In this document: positions 3,317-45,804 of the stretch, piece after piece
How the letters are laid out: each line of letters starts with the position of its first letter
Numbering within the stretch: the stretch's first letter is position 1
DNA from: Planctomycetales bacterium
GTDB taxonomy: Bacteria; Planctomycetota; Planctomycetia; Isosphaerales; Isosphaeraceae
NCBI GenBank assembly: GCA_027451885.1
Contig: DAIDHX010000218.1
Span: 1-64,000, forward strand
Direction: 5' to 3'
Length of the DNA stretch: 64,000 bases
Translations under genes and position numbers: made by a program
The notes under the pieces: generated by a model
What the model was told of the DNA's origin: nothing
Database searches by the model: none
What the model saw: only the letters and a program-made list of their open reading frames with translations

Positions 3317-4213
3317 GTGACGATCCTTCTTAATGAGTTCAAATCCGACCTCGGCCGTATCCGGCGACTGATCGATGCCCTCGAACTCTTACGCGGCTTT
3401 CCTGCTCATACGGCCCCTAATCCGTCAACTGATCCCTTTATCGAGCATGCGGTCAAAGTTCATGGGTCAACTCTAAACTGCCACGCTGATATTGTAGTTC
3501 TCTCCGGCACAGCCATTCTCTACATGGCTGGAAGATTCGAGCATTATATACGCACAGTATTTGAGGAATTATGTGACTCAGTGGCTAAGAGATGTAATTC
3601 CTACGACAGTCTTCCGAGGGTGATGCGAACCAGCCTGATTTCCATGACTGCTGAGGTTATGAAAACCCCTCGCAAGTATGGCCACGCCGATAAAGGCGTT
3701 GAAGCGTTCATTAAAACCTTAGCACTCAATTTGACTGATCGATCCAAACTGGAATCCATAAATTCGGAATGCCTATCTATCACATATGATAATATGCGGC
3801 CAGATACGCTCGAAGAACTGTTTAAACGCATAGGTGCTGAGAGGATTTGGGAAAGAGTTGGGGCACAAGCCACAGTCCAAGCGTATTACCAGACGGCCGA
3901 CCCAGGTCAAGCAAAGAACAAGGCAACCAGCGATCTCAATAAATTCATGGATATTCGGAACCGCATTGCCCACCCTTCGCATGACGTCACATGGCCCGAT
4001 GCAGATACGGTAATAAAATATATGGATTTTTTAGAGATTATATCCGACGCAATTTTGCAGGTATCCAAGGTTTTCGAGGTATCTCACCCACCGCCGTCGC
4101 CATCTCCAACAGCCACGCCGTCTCCGTCAGTGACCCCTCCTCCGGACACAGCCGCCTCCCTGGCGCCTTCCACGCCGCGGAATGATGAATCGCTCTCCCA
4201 AGTTCCGCCATAA
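3317..4213 (+). CDS. HEPN-domain nuclease-like protein (MAE_28990 or RiboL-PSP type)
   Basis: The alpha-helical protein of 298 aa carries RNRIAH at residues 214-219, the R-x4-H motif (RNxxxH subtype) of HEPN ribonucleases. HEPN proteins of the MAE_28990 and RiboL-PSP types are known neighbours of DUF262 genes in prokaryotic conflict systems, which matches the arrangement here. The likely role is RNA cleavage when triggered, with the DUF262 protein as partner or regulator; this is inference. It starts at GTG one base after the upstream stop, with GGAG 9-10 bp before. An odd feature is a Pro/Ser/Thr-rich tail from about residue 255 to the end, probably disordered. It is AT-rich relative to its surroundings. 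Confidence 0.75.
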   Translation: MTILLNEFKSDLGRIRRLIDALELLRGFPAHTAPNPSTDPFIEHAVKVHGSTLNCHADIVVLSGTAILYMAGRFEHYIRTVFEELCDSVAKRCNSYDSLPRVMRTSLISMTAEVMKTPRKYGHADKGVEAFIKTLALNLTDRSKLESINSECLSITYDNMRPDTLEELFKRIGAERIWERVGAQATVQAYYQTADPGQAKNKATSDLNKFMDIRNRIAHPSHDVTWPDADTVIKYMDFLEIISDAILQVSKVFEVSHPPPSPSPTATPSPSVTPPPDTAASLAPSTPRNDESLSQVPP

Positions 4214-4446
4214 TCCTGTAAACACACGCACATCCGGACGAGTTTCCCTCCCATGCCTCCAAACGCCAAGCAGCCACCACCTGCACCATCCAAGGTCATG
4301 AAGGTGTACGCAAGGATATTTACTGGATTACCTCGACTTTCACCCCAACATCGGCCTTAGCAGCCTGTTGAAATTTCCCCCCCATCGCCTTTCACGGTAT
4401 CATCCTGCGGCCGACCGATTGGAGCCAGCATCGTGAGGATCTGAAA

Positions 4447-4690
4447 ATGGCGATGGGCAAGCGGCGACGCGAGACTCAGGAGCAGCTCTTCATCGCGACC
4501 GATCGTCTCCCTATGGCGGCCGGTCATCCCTTTTACCAGCGGCTCAACCAGTTGCTGGCCGAGGCCGGGTTCGACACCTGGCTCGAGAATCGCTGCCGAC
4601 AATATTACGCGGCTGAAGGCTCGGTCGGGCGACCGTCGATCCCACCCGGCGTGTACTTCCGCATGCTCCTCGTCGGGTACTTCGAGAGAA
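4447..4690 (+). pseudogene. Transposase fragment (DUF772-type N-terminus) interrupted by repeat block 3
   Basis: About 81 codons start MAMGKRRRETQEQLF and run to GRPSIPPGVYFRMLLVGYFE, the conserved N-terminal helical region (DUF772) of IS5/IS1182-like transposases. The match stops exactly after GYFE, where the purine-rich start of repeat block 3 begins (GAAAGGCAGAAGAAG). No catalytic DDE region appears downstream, so the 3' part was lost or lies elsewhere. The sequence just upstream (from about 4365) may hold the left end of the insertion sequence, but no terminal inverted repeat was identified. It is non-functional as it stands. Confidence 0.8.
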
Positions 4691-5214
4691 AGGCAGAAGA
4701 AGACACGCAGGAACAGGAGTCACGACACCTGCTGATGATCAGCGCGCGATCGAACTCGCGAGGAATCGATCAAGGGCCGGGCTGGACCGCGGGGAATGGG
4801 ACTGGTACACGGAAAATGGGTGTCTTATTCTGGCTTTGTTCTCCAAAGAAGGCAGAGGTAAAGGCAGAAGTAGACACCCAAGGAATTGAGAAAGGCAGAA
4901 GAAGACACGCAGGAACAGGAGTCACGACACCCGCTGAGGATCAGCGCGCGATCGAACTCGCGAGGAATCGATCAAGGGCCGGGCTGGACCGCGGAGAATG
5001 GGAGTGGTACGCGGAAAATGGGTGTCTTATTCCAGCCGATCCCGGTGCGTGATCGCTCTCGTTCAGGAGTCACGACACCCGCTGAGGATCAGCGCGCGAT
5101 CGAGCTCGCGAGGAATCGATCAAGGGCCGGGCTGGACCGCGGGGAATGGGACTGGTACACGGAAAATGGGTGTCTTGTTCCAGCCTTCCGGAAAATGGGT
5201 GTCTTGTTCCAGCC
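4691..5214 (+). repeat. Composite repeat block 3 (three cores)
   Basis: Cores lie at 4744-4835 (diverging after 4830), 4946-5037 and 5094-5185. The last two are separated by 56 bp, 17 bp shorter than in blocks 1 and 2, because a GATCCCTTATTCCAGCC duplication is missing. A 29-bp tail (5186-5214) repeats the core end. A direct copy of the sequence that is inverted at 1409-1450 lies at about 4851-4890. It interrupts the transposase gene on its left and ends about 60 bp before the convergent DUF3037 gene. Confidence 0.85.
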
Positions 5215-5271
5215 CGGGCTGATCTGAGGACGAAAGTCTTATGGCAAGGTCAAGGCAACGGACGTCAGGGA

Positions 5272-6093
5272 TTAGACTCCGACCTTATCGAGATCCTTGC
5301 CTTGAACCCGGATCTCGTGGATCAGCTCGTCCACTTCGTTGGTGGCGTAAAGCCTGGCCCGCCCTTGTTGAAGGATTCGCTTGACATCCTCCCGGACCTC
5401 ATTCTCGTTCGTTCGGAACTGCCCTACGACGACGAGTTCCAGGTCGCCGAGCTCGCTGTCGGGATGCTCGTAAAGGGCAAGTCCTTCGATTGCATGGGAG
5501 CTTGCCGTCTTACGTATCTGATCCGGATCCCTTGCCTGGAAACTGACCGGCTGGATCAGATTGAAGCGACCGTTCTGGTATCCGAAGGGGACTTCGATCT
5601 CACGCCTGAGGCTCGGAACGTTAATCTCGATATCCTGCTTCAACTTGGAACCCAGATCTGCCTTAAGTAGCTGTTCGGAAAGACGCTTCCGGAAACCCTT
5701 GACGGCTAGTGGTCGCTTACCTTGCCCCACGACCTCCTCGAATAGTTCATCAAGGTCCTTCAAGGGTTCCCGAACCGTGAACGGACGAGGCGATGTTAAC
5801 TGGATGTTGTTGCCACGGCGTTGAGCGAAGGCAATTAGGTCTTCCACGTTACGGAAGTCCCTGCCCTCGATTTCGAGTCGTTCCTTGATCCCGTGTTTGT
5901 AGGAGTTGACCCTGGACCAGTCAAAGGCATCCTTGCCGAAGAACCGCTGAATCCGGGAATTATCCCTCGCGATGCGAACTTCCAGAAAGTTAAGCTCGGG
6001 GCAGAACAGGACGACCCCGATGTTCGCCGCCTCAAGACGGGAAGGGTCGGGACAGAATTGAATCAGAGCGTAGTAACCCTTTGTGGGTTTCAT
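5272..6093 (-). CDS. DUF3037 domain protein
   Basis: The 273-aa protein begins MKPTKGYYALIQFCPDPSR, followed by GVVLFCPE, the typical opening of the DUF3037 family. Its biochemical role is not known. DUF3037 genes are commonly next to HipA-like kinase genes, and here the start overlaps the kinase stop by four bases (ATGA), which implies translational coupling. It may be the kinase's substrate, adaptor or antitoxin; which one cannot be decided from sequence. No signal peptide or membrane segment is seen. The gene runs towards repeat block 3. Confidence 0.8.
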   Translation of the reverse strand: MKPTKGYYALIQFCPDPSRLEAANIGVVLFCPELNFLEVRIARDNSRIQRFFGKDAFDWSRVNSYKHGIKERLEIEGRDFRNVEDLIAFAQRRGNNIQLTSPRPFTVREPLKDLDELFEEVVGQGKRPLAVKGFRKRLSEQLLKADLGSKLKQDIEINVPSLRREIEVPFGYQNGRFNLIQPVSFQARDPDQIRKTASSHAIEGLALYEHPDSELGDLELVVVGQFRTNENEVREDVKRILQQGRARLYATNEVDELIHEIRVQGKDLDKVGV

Positions 6094-6932
6094 AAGTTGG
6101 ACTCCGTCTCGTCCGTGAGACCGACAGGCTTGTTAGCTGGGCAGAGCTTATTCATTATAAAAGCGGATAGGAAGGAGGCTCTAGAGGCGAGAAACTGGAC
6201 GAGGGCTTCCCGGGTCGGCTGGTCCACATCCCATTCTTGGGGAAGGGCTTGCGTCAGAAGCTCCGCGTCCTGCTTTGTGAACGACCCGAGTTTCTGGGCA
6301 GCCTGGACGACGATCTGGCAGTTCACCCAAGGCTGGAACTCGGGGAATAACCCGTAGATCTTGTCGTCTCTAACTCGGTCAATGGAATTCAGCCTTGGGG
6401 TCAGAGGCCTGCCGCAGGTGAAGCAGTGTGAGTGGTCCATGGCACGGAGGAGGAGGTTGCCAGGGGGGGCATCCTCGCTAAGGTAGATGTTATTGCGATT
6501 GATCCGATTGCCATCGGGTGAGTGCCGGTCACAGTTCAGGGTCCAGGTGTCGAACACCACCAGGCGGGTAATATCGTCAGGGTTCGACAGTTGCGCAAGT
6601 TGGCGTTCCGTACCACTCCACACGTCTCCGGGATCGTACTTCGTGATGAATGCGGGTCCGGGTTCGACTTCACCGTCCTCGAAGAACGTGAGGCCATACG
6701 CGGCGTCGACACGGATCGTCTCGTACTCGAAGGTAGGAAGACCGAACCAATCTGCCAGGCGAGTGCCCACGAGATCGCACACCAGTACGTGGGGCCCTTC
6801 CGGGTTTCCCATAGCCTTGAGGTAGGCCGAGCCTTGATCCGTTTGTACTCTGATGGCCATTGTTCCTGTTTTAAGGGCTACTTCCTGCCTTCGGATGTGG
6901 GTGGGACGCCAATGTCCCTCGCGGTAGTTCAT
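6090..6932 (-). CDS. HipA-like protein kinase
   Basis: The 280-aa protein resembles the compact HipA-like kinase family (HipA_2 type) rather than full-length HipA of about 440 aa. Visible landmarks are a strand with a candidate ATP-binding lysine (AYLKAMGN), the catalytic-loop-like segment WTLNCDRH, and a metal-binding MDHSHCF stretch in place of DFG. HipA kinases phosphorylate proteins such as glutamyl-tRNA synthetase and slow growth; the target here is unknown. It is the first gene of a two-gene unit with DUF3037. No HipB-type DNA-binding antitoxin is encoded nearby. Confidence 0.75.
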   Translation of the reverse strand: MNYREGHWRPTHIRRQEVALKTGTMAIRVQTDQGSAYLKAMGNPEGPHVLVCDLVGTRLADWFGLPTFEYETIRVDAAYGLTFFEDGEVEPGPAFITKYDPGDVWSGTERQLAQLSNPDDITRLVVFDTWTLNCDRHSPDGNRINRNNIYLSEDAPPGNLLLRAMDHSHCFTCGRPLTPRLNSIDRVRDDKIYGLFPEFQPWVNCQIVVQAAQKLGSFTKQDAELLTQALPQEWDVDQPTREALVQFLASRASFLSAFIMNKLCPANKPVGLTDETESNL

Positions 6933-41965: not shown

Positions 41966-41995
41966 TTGACTCATGCCTTTGCAGGCTCCTACGAT
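41966..41995 (+). promoter_or_regulatory. Candidate promoter of the sugar ABC importer operon
   Basis: TTGACT (41966-41971) and TACGAT (41990-41995) are spaced by 18 bp and end about 46 bp before the binding-protein ATG, in the gap between divergent genes. Confidence 0.5.
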
Positions 41996-42041: not shown

Positions 42042-43118
42042 ATGTCGGCTGCCACAAGGCCAGGCGCGCGGGCCGCGGTTTTCAGGCTGTTCTTGAGCAT
42101 GGCATGGCTGTGCCTGCTGGTGGCTGGCTGCGGCGAGCCGGGCCCGGCGGGCAGCCCCGCAGCCACATCCTCCGCCGCCCGCTCGGTGGTGCTCGTCGGC
42201 TTCGATTCGAGCGAGCCGCTCGTCGATGCGCTCGGCAAGGGCAAGATCCAGGGGCTCGTGGTTCAGAATCCGATCGCCATGGGTGAGACCGCGGTCAAAA
42301 CAATGGTCGCGCACCTGGAAGGCAAGAAGGTCGAGACGCAGATTTCGACCGGGGAGACGGTTGTCACGCCCCAGAACATGAAGGATCCTGCGATCGACCG
42401 CCTGATTCACCCGCCGCAGCTTGAAAACAGCGGCGGCGCCAGCCTTTCGGGCGCCCGGGCCAAGAAGTGGCGCGTGATGGTGATCCCCAAGGGCACAACC
42501 CACGAATTCTGGAAGTCGATCCACGCCGGTGCGCAGAAGGCGGCGGACGAGCTGGGCAGCGTCGAGGTCGTCTGGCAGGGTCCGCAGAAGGAAGACGACC
42601 GGGTGCAGCAGATCCAGCTTGTGCAAAGCGCGATCGCGGCCGGAGTCGACGGCATCATCCTGGCGCCGCTGGACGCCAGGGCGCTTGTGGACCCGGTGGA
42701 AAGCGCGGTCGCCAAGGGGGTTCCCGTACTGATCTTCGACTCCGCGCTCGAGTCCAACAGGATCGTGAGCTACGTGGCCACCAACAACTACAACGGCGGA
42801 GCCCTGGCCGCGCGCAGACTGGGCGAGGTGCTCAAGGGCAAGGGAAACGTGATCCTGCTTCGCTATGCGGTCGGCTCCGAAAGCACGGAACAGCGCGAGA
42901 AGGGATTCACCGACACACTCTCGAAGGAGTTTCCGCAGATCAAGCTGATCTCCGACAGCGAATACGCCGGGCCGACCTCCGACACCGCCCAGCAGAAGGC
43001 GCAGAGCCTGGTCACGCTCCACAGCAGTGGAGTCGATGGCATCTTCTGCCCCAACGAGTCGAGCACCGACGGCATGCTCCGCGCGCTCGAGTCCGCGGGG
43101 ATGATCAGCAGCAAGTAG
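42042..43118 (+). CDS. Sugar ABC substrate-binding lipoprotein with circularly permuted order
   Basis: The 358-aa protein is a lipoprotein (lipobox ending at Cys30, LLVAGC) of the RbsB-like periplasmic binding family. Its parts are in permuted order. Residues about 48-127 (VVLVGFDSSEPL, GLVVQNP, VKTMVAHLEGKKVE, VTPQN) correspond to the segment that ends normal family members. A 13-residue Gly/Ser linker follows (about 128-140). Residues 141-358, beginning WRVMVIPKGTTHEFWKS, correspond to the normal beginning and stop at MLRALESAGMISSK, where homologues continue into VGFD. The sugar-contact Asp55 (GFD) and Gln75 are kept. A conserved reading frame and an intact importer downstream argue against decay. 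The ligand is probably a sugar. Confidence 0.85.
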   Translation: MSAATRPGARAAVFRLFLSMAWLCLLVAGCGEPGPAGSPAATSSAARSVVLVGFDSSEPLVDALGKGKIQGLVVQNPIAMGETAVKTMVAHLEGKKVETQISTGETVVTPQNMKDPAIDRLIHPPQLENSGGASLSGARAKKWRVMVIPKGTTHEFWKSIHAGAQKAADELGSVEVVWQGPQKEDDRVQQIQLVQSAIAAGVDGIILAPLDARALVDPVESAVAKGVPVLIFDSALESNRIVSYVATNNYNGGALAARRLGEVLKGKGNVILLRYAVGSESTEQREKGFTDTLSKEFPQIKLISDSEYAGPTSDTAQQKAQSLVTLHSSGVDGIFCPNESSTDGMLRALESAGMISSK

Positions 43119-43154: not shown

Positions 43155-44636
43155 ATGCGGCTTGAGATGCGCGATGTATCGAAGTCGTTCGGCCCGACCC
43201 GGGCGCTCGAGGGCGTGTCGCTGGCCGTCGATGGAGGCGAGATCCGGGCCTTGATCGGAGAAAACGGCGCGGGCAAGAGCACGCTCATGAAGATCCTGAG
43301 CGGGGCGATCCGGCCGGATACGGGCACAATCACCCTCGACGGCGAACCCTTCGCGCCCAGCGGCCCGCGCCAGGCCCGCGACCGCGGCGTCGCCATGATC
43401 TACCAGGAAATCGCGCTCGCGCCTGATCTCACGGTCGAGGCGAACATCATGCTCGGCCGCGAGCTCTCCACATACGGCCTGGTGCGCGGACGCGCGCATC
43501 GCCGTATCGTGCGTGAGACGCTCGAATTGCTCGACCACCCCGACATCCATCCGGCGATCAAGGTGCGCTCGCTCTCCATCGGCGCCCAGCAGCTTGTGGA
43601 GATCGCCCGCGCGCTCACCGCGAACGCCCGGGTGCTCGTGCTCGACGAGCCCACAAGCTCGCTCACCGGGCGCGACGCCGAGCGGCTGTTCCAGCTCGTC
43701 GAGCGGTTGCGAGACCGCGGCATGGCCATCGTTTACATCAGCCATTTCCTCGAGGAATCGCGGCGGATCGCCCAGACTTTCACCGTGCTCCGCGACGGCA
43801 AGAACGCGGCGGATGGCCTGCTTGCCCAAACGAGCGAAGAGGCGATCATCGCGGCGATGGTTGGGCGCGACCTGAACGAGCTGTTCCCACAGGTGCCAAG
43901 GACGATCGGCGAGCCCATTCTCGATCTCCGCGACGTGGCTCTGCATCCGGAGTCTCAAAGCGGGCTGGTGCTCCACCGCGGCGAGGTCGTGGGGCTGGCC
44001 GGGCTCGTGGGCGCGGGCCGAACAAGCCTGCTGCGCGCGATCTATGGCCTTGATCCCGTGCGCACCGGCGTGGTGCGGGTGGCCGGCTATCCCGCCAGGA
44101 ACGCCGGCCCGGCCGAGCGCATCCGCCAGGGAGTGGGCTTTGCCAGCGAGGATCGCAAGACCGAGGGCCTTGCGCTTTCGCGCTCGATCGAGGACAACAT
44201 CACCCTCTCCGCGCTCGACCGGCACTCCCAGCGCGGATTCCTGCGCCTGGGCCAACGCAGGGCCGAGGCGGCCGAGCTCATGCGCAAGCTCGCCGTCAAG
44301 GCGCGTGGCCCGCGGGAACGGGTCGGCAACCTCTCCGGCGGCAACCAGCAGAAGGTCGCGCTCGCACGCCTGCTCCACCAGCACGCTCATGTGTTCCTGC
44401 TCGACGAACCCACCCGCGGCATCGATGTGGGCTCCAAGGCCGAAATCTACCGCATGATCGGCGAGCAGGCCGCCCAGGGCGCGGCGATCCTGATCGCCAG
44501 CTCGTACCTGCCCGAACTCTTCGGCGTCTGCGACCGCATCGCCGTGATGTCCCGCGGCCGAATCTTCCCCGCCCGGCCCACGCACGAATGGACCGAGCAC
44601 AAGGTCATGGAGCTGGCCACCCAGCTTTCGAGCTGA
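43155..44636 (+). CDS. Sugar ABC transporter ATP-binding protein (RbsA/MglA type)
   Basis: The 493-aa protein has two ABC domains. The first has Walker A GENGAGKS, the Q-loop YQE, signature LSIGAQQ and Walker B VLVLDEPTSSL. The second has a variant Walker A (GLVGAGRTSLL), signature LSGGNQQK and VFLLDEPTRGID. This tandem form with a degenerate second P-loop is usual in the carbohydrate uptake transporter 2 family. It energises the permease encoded next. It follows the binding-protein gene after 36 bp. Confidence 0.95.
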   Translation: MRLEMRDVSKSFGPTRALEGVSLAVDGGEIRALIGENGAGKSTLMKILSGAIRPDTGTITLDGEPFAPSGPRQARDRGVAMIYQEIALAPDLTVEANIMLGRELSTYGLVRGRAHRRIVRETLELLDHPDIHPAIKVRSLSIGAQQLVEIARALTANARVLVLDEPTSSLTGRDAERLFQLVERLRDRGMAIVYISHFLEESRRIAQTFTVLRDGKNAADGLLAQTSEEAIIAAMVGRDLNELFPQVPRTIGEPILDLRDVALHPESQSGLVLHRGEVVGLAGLVGAGRTSLLRAIYGLDPVRTGVVRVAGYPARNAGPAERIRQGVGFASEDRKTEGLALSRSIEDNITLSALDRHSQRGFLRLGQRRAEAAELMRKLAVKARGPRERVGNLSGGNQQKVALARLLHQHAHVFLLDEPTRGIDVGSKAEIYRMIGEQAAQGAAILIASSYLPELFGVCDRIAVMSRGRIFPARPTHEWTEHKVMELATQLSS

Positions 44637-44757
44637 CAAAACAGGCACCAGGAGCGGGTTGCCGCCCGCTCCCGCGTCGCATATCCTCGGGCAAACGCCG
44701 CGCCCGCGTTCCGATGTCACGACAACGCGGCAGCCATTTCTCCGCCAGGGGGTACGC

Positions 44758-45804
44758 GTGACAGGTTCCGAAGCAAAGCTGCCAGCGCAAGCCGCGCTCC
44801 GCGGGACTCTGGGCTGGGTCTGGACCGTGCTTGGCCCATTCCTCGGCCTGATTCTCATCACGGGTTTGTTTGCGTATCTCACGCGCGAGACGGGCTCCTT
44901 TCTCACACTGTACAACTGGCGGATCATCGCGGTGCAAACCGTGGTGGTCGGAGTGGCCGCGCTGGGAATGACGCTCATCATGATCTCAGGTGCCATTGAT
45001 CTTTCGGTCGGTTCCACGATCGCGCTCGTGACGGTGGTCGTGGCGCTGATCGTCAAGCGACTCGACCCGGCCATGCCGCTGGCTCTGAAGGGGGGCTTTG
45101 CGCTTGCGCTCGCGATGTGCTCGGGCGTGCTCCTGGGTGGGGTCTGCGGCGCCATCAACGGCGCGCTCACGGCAGGGCTTAAGGTGGTGCCCTTCATCAT
45201 CACCCTGGGCAGCTACAAGGTCTATCGCGGACTGGCCAAGTGGCTCTCATCAAGCACCACGGTTTACGTGCCCTCCGACGCCAAGGCATGGTGGTTCTCC
45301 AGGATTCTCGCCGCCGAGCCCGAACCGCGCTGGCTGCTGGTCGCCCCCGGAGTCTGGGTACTCGCTCTGCTCGCGCTCGTGCTCGCCATCGTGCTCCGGC
45401 AAAGCGTCTTCGGCCGGTACATCTACGCTGTGGGGTCAAACGAGGCCACGGCCAGGCTCTGCGGCGTCAGCGTGCCCCGGGTGCGGGTGTGGGTCTATGC
45501 AATCGCAGGACTGGCGACCGGGCTCGCCGGCGTGCTCCAGTTCGCCTACCTGAGCGCGACCGGCGATTCCACCACGGCCGACGGGCTCGAGCTCCAGGTC
45601 ATCGCCGCCGTGGTCATCGGCGGCGGCAGCCTGAGCGGCGGCGAAGGCAGCGTGCTGGGAACACTCATCGGATGCTTGATCATGTCTGTGCTCAATAATG
45701 GCTGCGTCCACGCCCGGATTCCAAACCCCGCCCAGGACGTTATCATTGGAGTGATCATCGTCGCCGCCGTCACGCTCGACCGCATTCGCCGCGGCAGCCG
45801 TTAG
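44758..45804 (+). CDS. Sugar ABC transporter permease (RbsC type)
   Basis: The 348-aa protein has 8-10 helices and family motifs GMTLIMISGAIDLSVGS, GLKVVPFIITLG and AVGSNEATARLCGV, the last with the EAA-like contact to the ATPase. GTG at 44758 is preceded by AGGGGG and fits the usual N-terminus; the frame is open upstream but not family-like. It completes the importer encoded at 42042-45804. Confidence 0.9.
   Translation: MTGSEAKLPAQAALRGTLGWVWTVLGPFLGLILITGLFAYLTRETGSFLTLYNWRIIAVQTVVVGVAALGMTLIMISGAIDLSVGSTIALVTVVVALIVKRLDPAMPLALKGGFALALAMCSGVLLGGVCGAINGALTAGLKVVPFIITLGSYKVYRGLAKWLSSSTTVYVPSDAKAWWFSRILAAEPEPRWLLVAPGVWVLALLALVLAIVLRQSVFGRYIYAVGSNEATARLCGVSVPRVRVWVYAIAGLATGLAGVLQFAYLSATGDSTTADGLELQVIAAVVIGGGSLSGGEGSVLGTLIGCLIMSVLNNGCVHARIPNPAQDVIIGVIIVAAVTLDRIRRGSR

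Follow-up and report, generated by a model that had tools for sequence, protein, structure and literature searches.

A circularly permuted Type I sugar-binding lipoprotein gene conserved across the Isosphaeraceae

Background

Can a sugar-binding lipoprotein whose two sequence blocks stand in the reverse of their usual order be a natural component of an ABC importer, or does such an arrangement betray a faulty assembly? The question is raised by a gene at positions 42042-43118 of the window, a stretch of 64,000 nucleotides from contig DAIDHX010000218.1 of a Planctomycetales bacterium of the family Isosphaeraceae. An initial annotation of this DNA proposed that the product is circularly permuted: the block that normally closes RbsB-like binding proteins would sit directly behind the lipoprotein signal, a Gly/Ser linker and the normal N-terminal block would follow, and the chain would end where homologues run into VGFD. 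It held the frame to be intact, the ligand residues to be kept, matching ATPase and permease genes to follow and the new termini to lie in the C-lobe. It also considered a natural permutation in a working importer unusual and, wary of an artefact, proposed a dot plot against RbsB, a structure prediction and a search in related Isosphaeraceae, naming homologues of the same genus in normal order as the result that would tell against it.

We report a computational analysis of this gene and its relatives. The product of 42042-43118 very probably captures the substrate for a sugar ABC importer of the CUT2/ribose type, as a lipoprotein with a naturally permuted chain that became fixed in the ancestor of the Isosphaeraceae. 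Other planctomycetes carry binding proteins of the same fold that are cut at different points, and these provide an opportunity to examine how often, where and perhaps by which route such permutations arise.

Chain order of the window protein

The open reading frame at 42042-43118 (forward strand) is intact, as first described, and encodes 358 amino acids from an ATG at 42042; a second in-frame ATG lies upstream, at 41973. Residues 1-30 (42042-42131) read as a signal peptide with the lipobox motif LLVAGC, in which Cys30 is the predicted lipidation site. A lipobox Cys after a hydrophobic stretch is present in 28/28 Isosphaeraceae orthologues, with a Gly next to the Cys in nearly all, and by this lipobox with its invariant Cys the permuted protein is classed as a bacterial lipoprotein, its lipidation being predicted. 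Residues 31-46 (42132-42179) form a tether linking the lipid anchor to the strand that now stands at the N-terminus; this tether varies in length, has relaxed dN and is predicted to be disordered (pLDDT <50). Next comes the C-block, C-terminal in normal binding proteins, which spans residues 47-127 (42180-42422) and reads VVLVGFD...VVQNP...VTPQN...IHPP. It is joined by 13 residues between the ancestral C- and N-termini (128-140; 42423-42461) to the N-block, the N-terminal and middle part of normal proteins, which here comes last (141-358; 42462-43115) and ends at the new C-terminus, GMISSK.

The Pfam profile PF13407 (Peripla_BP_4) matches this product twice and in swapped order, profile positions 204-258 at 42165-42329 and 2-208 at 42477-43109, with E values for the two pieces of 4e-52 and 6e-9, far beyond chance. 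Its score of 213 bits against a curated cut-off of 35.1 places the protein in the Type I/cluster B family; its chain, running from C-block to N-block, departs from the canonical N-block-first order. We therefore count the window protein as a permuted relative of the Type I/cluster B sugar-binding proteins (PF13407) that serve CUT2 importers and not as one of their canonical members. The proposed dot plot against Escherichia coli RbsB gave the expected two offset sets of diagonals, with residues 142-358 on RbsB 1-210 (offset +141 to +148) and residues 43-105 on RbsB 203-265 (offset -160), and alignments to proteins in the PDB (4rxt, 3ksm, 5dkv) return the same two swapped pieces. The cut falls at RbsB 207/208, a helix/strand boundary of the C-lobe between the helix GMLRALESAG and the strand VVLVGFD. 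The chain ends in GMLRALESAGMISSK, and it is there that normal-order orthologues continue into the GFD strand (for example GMLRALEEAGLAGKVVYLGFDSS in L134). The initial annotation was thus right about the block behind the signal, the chain end and the lobe that holds the new termini. Its Gly/Ser linker is indeed rich in these residues but is no free spacer, the 13 positions being nearly constant in length (almost gap-free in the 28 orthologues) and carrying ASLSGxKxKK, which is conserved in the family.

Type I binding proteins have two lobes that look alike, and the first block might on this account be a degenerate N-lobe, or an unrelated domain, in a protein whose C-terminus is merely missing. 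The block, however, shares 37-61% identity with the C-block of normal orthologues, matches Pfam positions 204-258, keeps the ligand-site residues F54, D55 and Q75 and completes the fold in the AlphaFold2 model. Its identity to the normal C-block, together with the offset diagonals of the dot plot, rules this illusion of pseudo-symmetry out, and we give it a negligible probability.

Conservation and selection within the family

Aligned end to end, 28/28 distinct full-length Isosphaeraceae orthologues, that of the window included, have the permuted order, with 52-77% identity over the mature chain. The carriers include Singulisphaera acidiphila DSM 18658 (complete genome, NC_019892.1, L041), Singulisphaera sp. 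GP187 (L040) and genomes of the same genus as the window; taxon names in this analysis follow record titles and the kinship labels of the genomes. Among the 45 Isosphaeraceae genomes searched, 29 have a match at E<=1e-40, none of which is in normal order. Outside the family, all of about 90 relatives have the N-block before the C-block except five proteins of a second permuted form (form B, below); these normal-order relatives come from Acidobacteriota, Verrucomicrobiota, Bacteroidota, Aminicenantes, other Planctomycetota and more.

These counts bear directly on the concern that a misassembly or local rearrangement in a metagenome-like assembly, here split into 316 contigs, had produced a false permuted gene. 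Against it, both junctions are the same in the 28 distinct orthologues, which come from same-genus genomes and a complete isolate genome among others, and the order recurs in single- or few-contig genomes (G014, G011, G028, G029). An assembly artefact is excluded because the identical order is found in independently sequenced genomes, and the chance that one lies behind the gene is close to nil. Same-genus homologues in normal order, which would have spoken against a permutation, did not appear; the two at 74-77% identity (L007, L008) are permuted too.

The permuted gene is under strong purifying selection in the Isosphaeraceae. In nine pairs dN/dS is 0.04-0.20, rough values, dS being high in several pairs; both blocks are constrained and clear relaxation is confined to the N-terminal tether.

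Some further loci deserve mention. A degenerate permuted copy with a broken frame and without a signal peptide, itself one of the 29 matches, lies at 4490-5341 of L120 (G025:C1:7786000-7796000); no ATPase or permease adjoins it, and the downstream flippase gene is kept. Isosphaeraceae-type permuted genes also occur in public metagenome-assembled genomes titled Bacillota or Candidatus Kuenenia (L039, L046, L047). The titles of L046 and L047 look wrong, because their protein is identical to that of genomes labelled with the same family. The window's own genome holds, at G000:C266:17650-18417 (L001), a normal-order PF13407 domain within an open frame of 684 amino acids, and many Isosphaeraceae have relatives of this frame of about 700 amino acids, possibly a fused or extended binding protein.

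Predicted fold and ligand site

An AlphaFold2 monomer model built from the 28 permuted sequences (pLDDT 89.3, pTM 0.86) gives a confident predicted fold, putatively the two-lobed Venus-flytrap, whose order of elements matches a permuted periplasmic binding protein. Disorder is predicted only in the tether (pLDDT <50 at mature residues 1-16), and the linker is partly to well ordered (pLDDT 69 at mature residues 101-110 and 95 at 111-120). In Foldseek searches with the model only about 210-220 of its 329 residues align to normal-order binding proteins (TMq about 0.55-0.60), a partial alignment that is expected because a sequential aligner meets a permuted chain; the alignment to the Rhodopirellula protein 5er3 covers 282 columns.

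The ligand site can be followed through the swap. The positions F15, F16, D89, R141, N190, F214, D215 and Q235, which form the sugar site of RbsB, correspond in the window protein to F156, W157, D233, R285, N338, F54, D55 and Q75. W157, D233, R285, D55 and Q75 are identical in forms A (the Isosphaeraceae type) and B and in normal relatives, as is F54 but for one form-B row, and F156, H154 and N338 are mostly kept across permuted and normal forms. The site residues are thus retained as first claimed, and the ligand is presumably a sugar.

A linker of 13 residues could permit domain swapping, with the first block filling in the C-lobe of a neighbouring molecule and not that of its own chain. Lipid-tethered binding proteins normally work as monomers. 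The confident monomer prediction, obtained from only 28 sequences and with an ordered linker end, argues against such a dimer, as does the finding that the permuted lipoprotein TpMglB-2 of Treponema pallidum was monomeric (PMC4990184), and we consider a swapped dimer highly unlikely.

Operon context

The permuted gene is followed on the forward strand by an RbsA-like ABC ATPase with two ABC domains (43155-44636; two PF00005 stretches, E 2e-54) and an RbsC-like permease of the BPD_transp_2 family (44659-45804; PF02653, E 3e-41) that is conserved downstream. A double-ABC-domain ATPase and a BPD_transp_2 permease alongside are the marks of a CUT2 importer operon, and both are present here. Both follow the permuted gene in 12/14 of the longer Isosphaeraceae loci.

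In one genome (G006; L184) the permuted gene stands apart from the transporter genes, and an ATPase of 67% identity lies on another contig. In another (G016; L185) the permease follows the permuted gene, and no orthologous ATPase was found. These two genomes without a linked complete transporter, and the degenerate copy in G025, might indicate that the permuted protein no longer takes part in transport and now serves as a lipoprotein for sensing or storage, or else is decaying. The operon in 12/14 longer loci, the low dN/dS and the conserved ligand site point the other way and make such a change of role unlikely. Function is nevertheless not established for all carriers, because the gene is unlinked in G006, has no orthologous ATPase in G016 and is degenerate in G025. 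For the window gene, we regard a transport function as the probable one.

Other cut points and the number of origins

Permuted relatives cut elsewhere were found in other planctomycetes. Form B, which has a second cut within the same orthologous subfamily as form A, was first met in two genomes (G328, G325) whose matches spanned the form-A junction and stopped at residue 267. Its five proteins belong to two other planctomycete families and lie on the forward strand at L131:3933-5093 and L132:3880-4902 and on the reverse strand at L147:1489-2586, L148:1495-2520 and L149:1441-2553; the three of these five that came to light after the first two belong to the family of G325, which also has normal-order relatives. 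The order of these proteins is signal, VILLRY...GFD/VFD...LLSPEQ, linker and KYRIAVIPKG...GGALAAKRLAE, with the cut before the VILLRYAVGSESTEQ strand at about RbsB 123/124. Form B resembles the window protein in its subfamily (about 50-54% identity), in a permutation within the C-lobe and, for most members, in its place behind a lipobox, but differs in its cut, at about RbsB 123/124 against 207/208, and in its independent origin. An ATPase and a permease follow it in L131, L132 and L187, and its model is of similar quality (pLDDT 87, pTM 0.84).

Form C is the type of 5er3. Its representative L118 aligns with 5er3 in one unswapped stretch of 318 residues (E 1e-98) but with the normal proteins 2h3h/2qvc in two swapped pieces, which places the cut near RbsB 152. 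About 22 of 298 genomes of the class carry form C (L116-L119, L159-L178), which belongs to another subfamily with normal-order relatives of its own, at about 50% identity per half. In a PF13407 survey of 44 genomes of the class form C appears as profile positions 150-258 before 6-156; only forms A and C, and no further cut points, were seen among the matches listed there, form B being rare.

Trees were built on de-permuted sequences, with 123 and with 60 rows. Form A is one clade in both (support 87/99 and 100/99.9), and the permutation has a single origin in the Isosphaeraceae and was fixed in their ancestor. That forms A and B share one origin is ruled out by the AU test, which rejects the two as a single clade (p-AU 0.0004), while a single origin of form B is compatible with the data (p 0.25). 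At least three permutation events are needed, because the cut points differ. All three planctomycete cuts lie in the C-lobe, before a beta-strand and right behind the lipoprotein signal. Judging from the parallel-strand architecture, the cut sites would lie on the C-lobe face away from the ligand cleft, like the ancestral N-terminus on the N-lobe.

A proposed route and its possible consequences

Permutation by duplication is the standard model for such rearrangements. By this most likely route, the binding-protein gene would have been duplicated in tandem upstream of the ATPase and permease genes and the copies fused head to tail; copy 1 would then have lost its front part and copy 2 its back part, leaving the signal and lipobox, the C-block, the linker and the N-block. 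Tandem normal-order genes do occur directly upstream of the same ATPase, in L050 (Ignavibacteria; 3534-4739 and 4758-5753) and L114 (Phycisphaerae; 3797-5056 and 5205-6368), and the first step that the route needs therefore occurs in this very gene. A search around the window locus for remnants of a second copy found none, so that the duplication route lacks support locally. Long frames with normal-order homologues in L054/L183, L179, L180 and L182 were examined as candidate fused tandem copies and set aside, as each holds only one binding-protein unit.

The folded product is predicted to be an ordinary two-lobed Venus-flytrap that would close on its sugar and dock on the permease. With both chain ends now on the C-lobe, the lipid anchor would pull on that lobe and not on the N-lobe. 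A broader reading may be entertained: that planctomycetes are a hot spot for permutation of Type I binding lipoproteins, in which at least three independent events shifted the anchor away from the N-lobe and onto the cleft-distal face of the C-lobe, and were selected because tethered binding proteins then dock or open better at the importer. We think this doubtful as it stands, and a bias towards the C-lobe cannot be proved with three events.

It is rare for a natural permutation to have clear normal-order orthologues of more than 50% identity together with an origin that can be placed and candidate intermediates of a duplication. Here a single fold has been cut in three different ways within a single phylum, and the genes stand in a working operon context. 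Two questions thereby become testable: by what steps a permutation comes about and is tolerated in living cells, and whether binding-protein-dependent transport is affected by which lobe bears the anchor. Designers of permuted biosensors based on such binding proteins may also take the natural cut sites as guides.

Comparison with known systems

Swapped Pfam pieces, phylogeny, selection, predicted structure and synteny agree on a circularly permuted sugar-binding lipoprotein, and the initial annotation stands on this main point. Its remark that a natural permutation would be unusual holds in part: the permutation is natural, and rare with relatives of this kind, but it has precedents in TpMglB-2 (2016, PMC4990184) and PDB 5er3.

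The first permuted Type I binding protein to be published was TpMglB-2 (Tp0684), the glucose-binding lipoprotein of T. pallidum; its crystal structure, reported in 2016, led to the proposed class 'Type Ic / Cluster Bc' (PMC4990184). That protein is cut in its N-lobe: the three strands with which the N-lobe of EcMglB begins have moved to the end, while the C-lobe strand order is unchanged. The authors raised anchoring of the tethered lipoprotein as a possible reason for the permutation (PMC4990184). The window protein, whose fold is predicted, is likewise a permuted Type I lipoprotein that keeps the ligand residues and the ABC operon, would keep the bilobed fold and has both termini in one lobe. 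It differs in its subfamily and phylum and in being cut in the C-lobe, at RbsB 207/208, with about 60 C-terminal residues moved to the front, and so shares with 'Type Ic / Cluster Bc' the permuted Type I topology but not the N-lobe cut with both termini there. The fourth inter-lobe crossover at the joined termini, also a mark of TpMglB-2, is to be expected from any joining of the ancestral termini.

The protein of PDB 5er3, a solute-binding protein of Rhodopirellula baltica released in 2015, is closer in being a planctomycete Type I protein with a C-lobe permutation. It belongs, however, to another subfamily (about 25% identity to the window protein), and its cut, near RbsB 152, precedes that of the window protein by one strand-helix-strand-helix stretch (profile 150-156 against 204-208). 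In the subscription-free literature searched, we found no paper on 5er3 or on permuted binding proteins of planctomycetes; 5er3 appears to be a deposited second case whose permutation is undescribed there.

E. coli RbsB and the normal-order orthologues (for example L051, L055 and L133) are of the same family and share the ligand residues and the ATPase and permease partners, the orthologues with up to 62% identity to the window protein over the N-block; they differ in their normal chain order and in having the anchor or N-terminus on the N-lobe. Set against these systems, what is new in the window protein is another cut, another subfamily and a family-wide clade with clear normal-order relatives.
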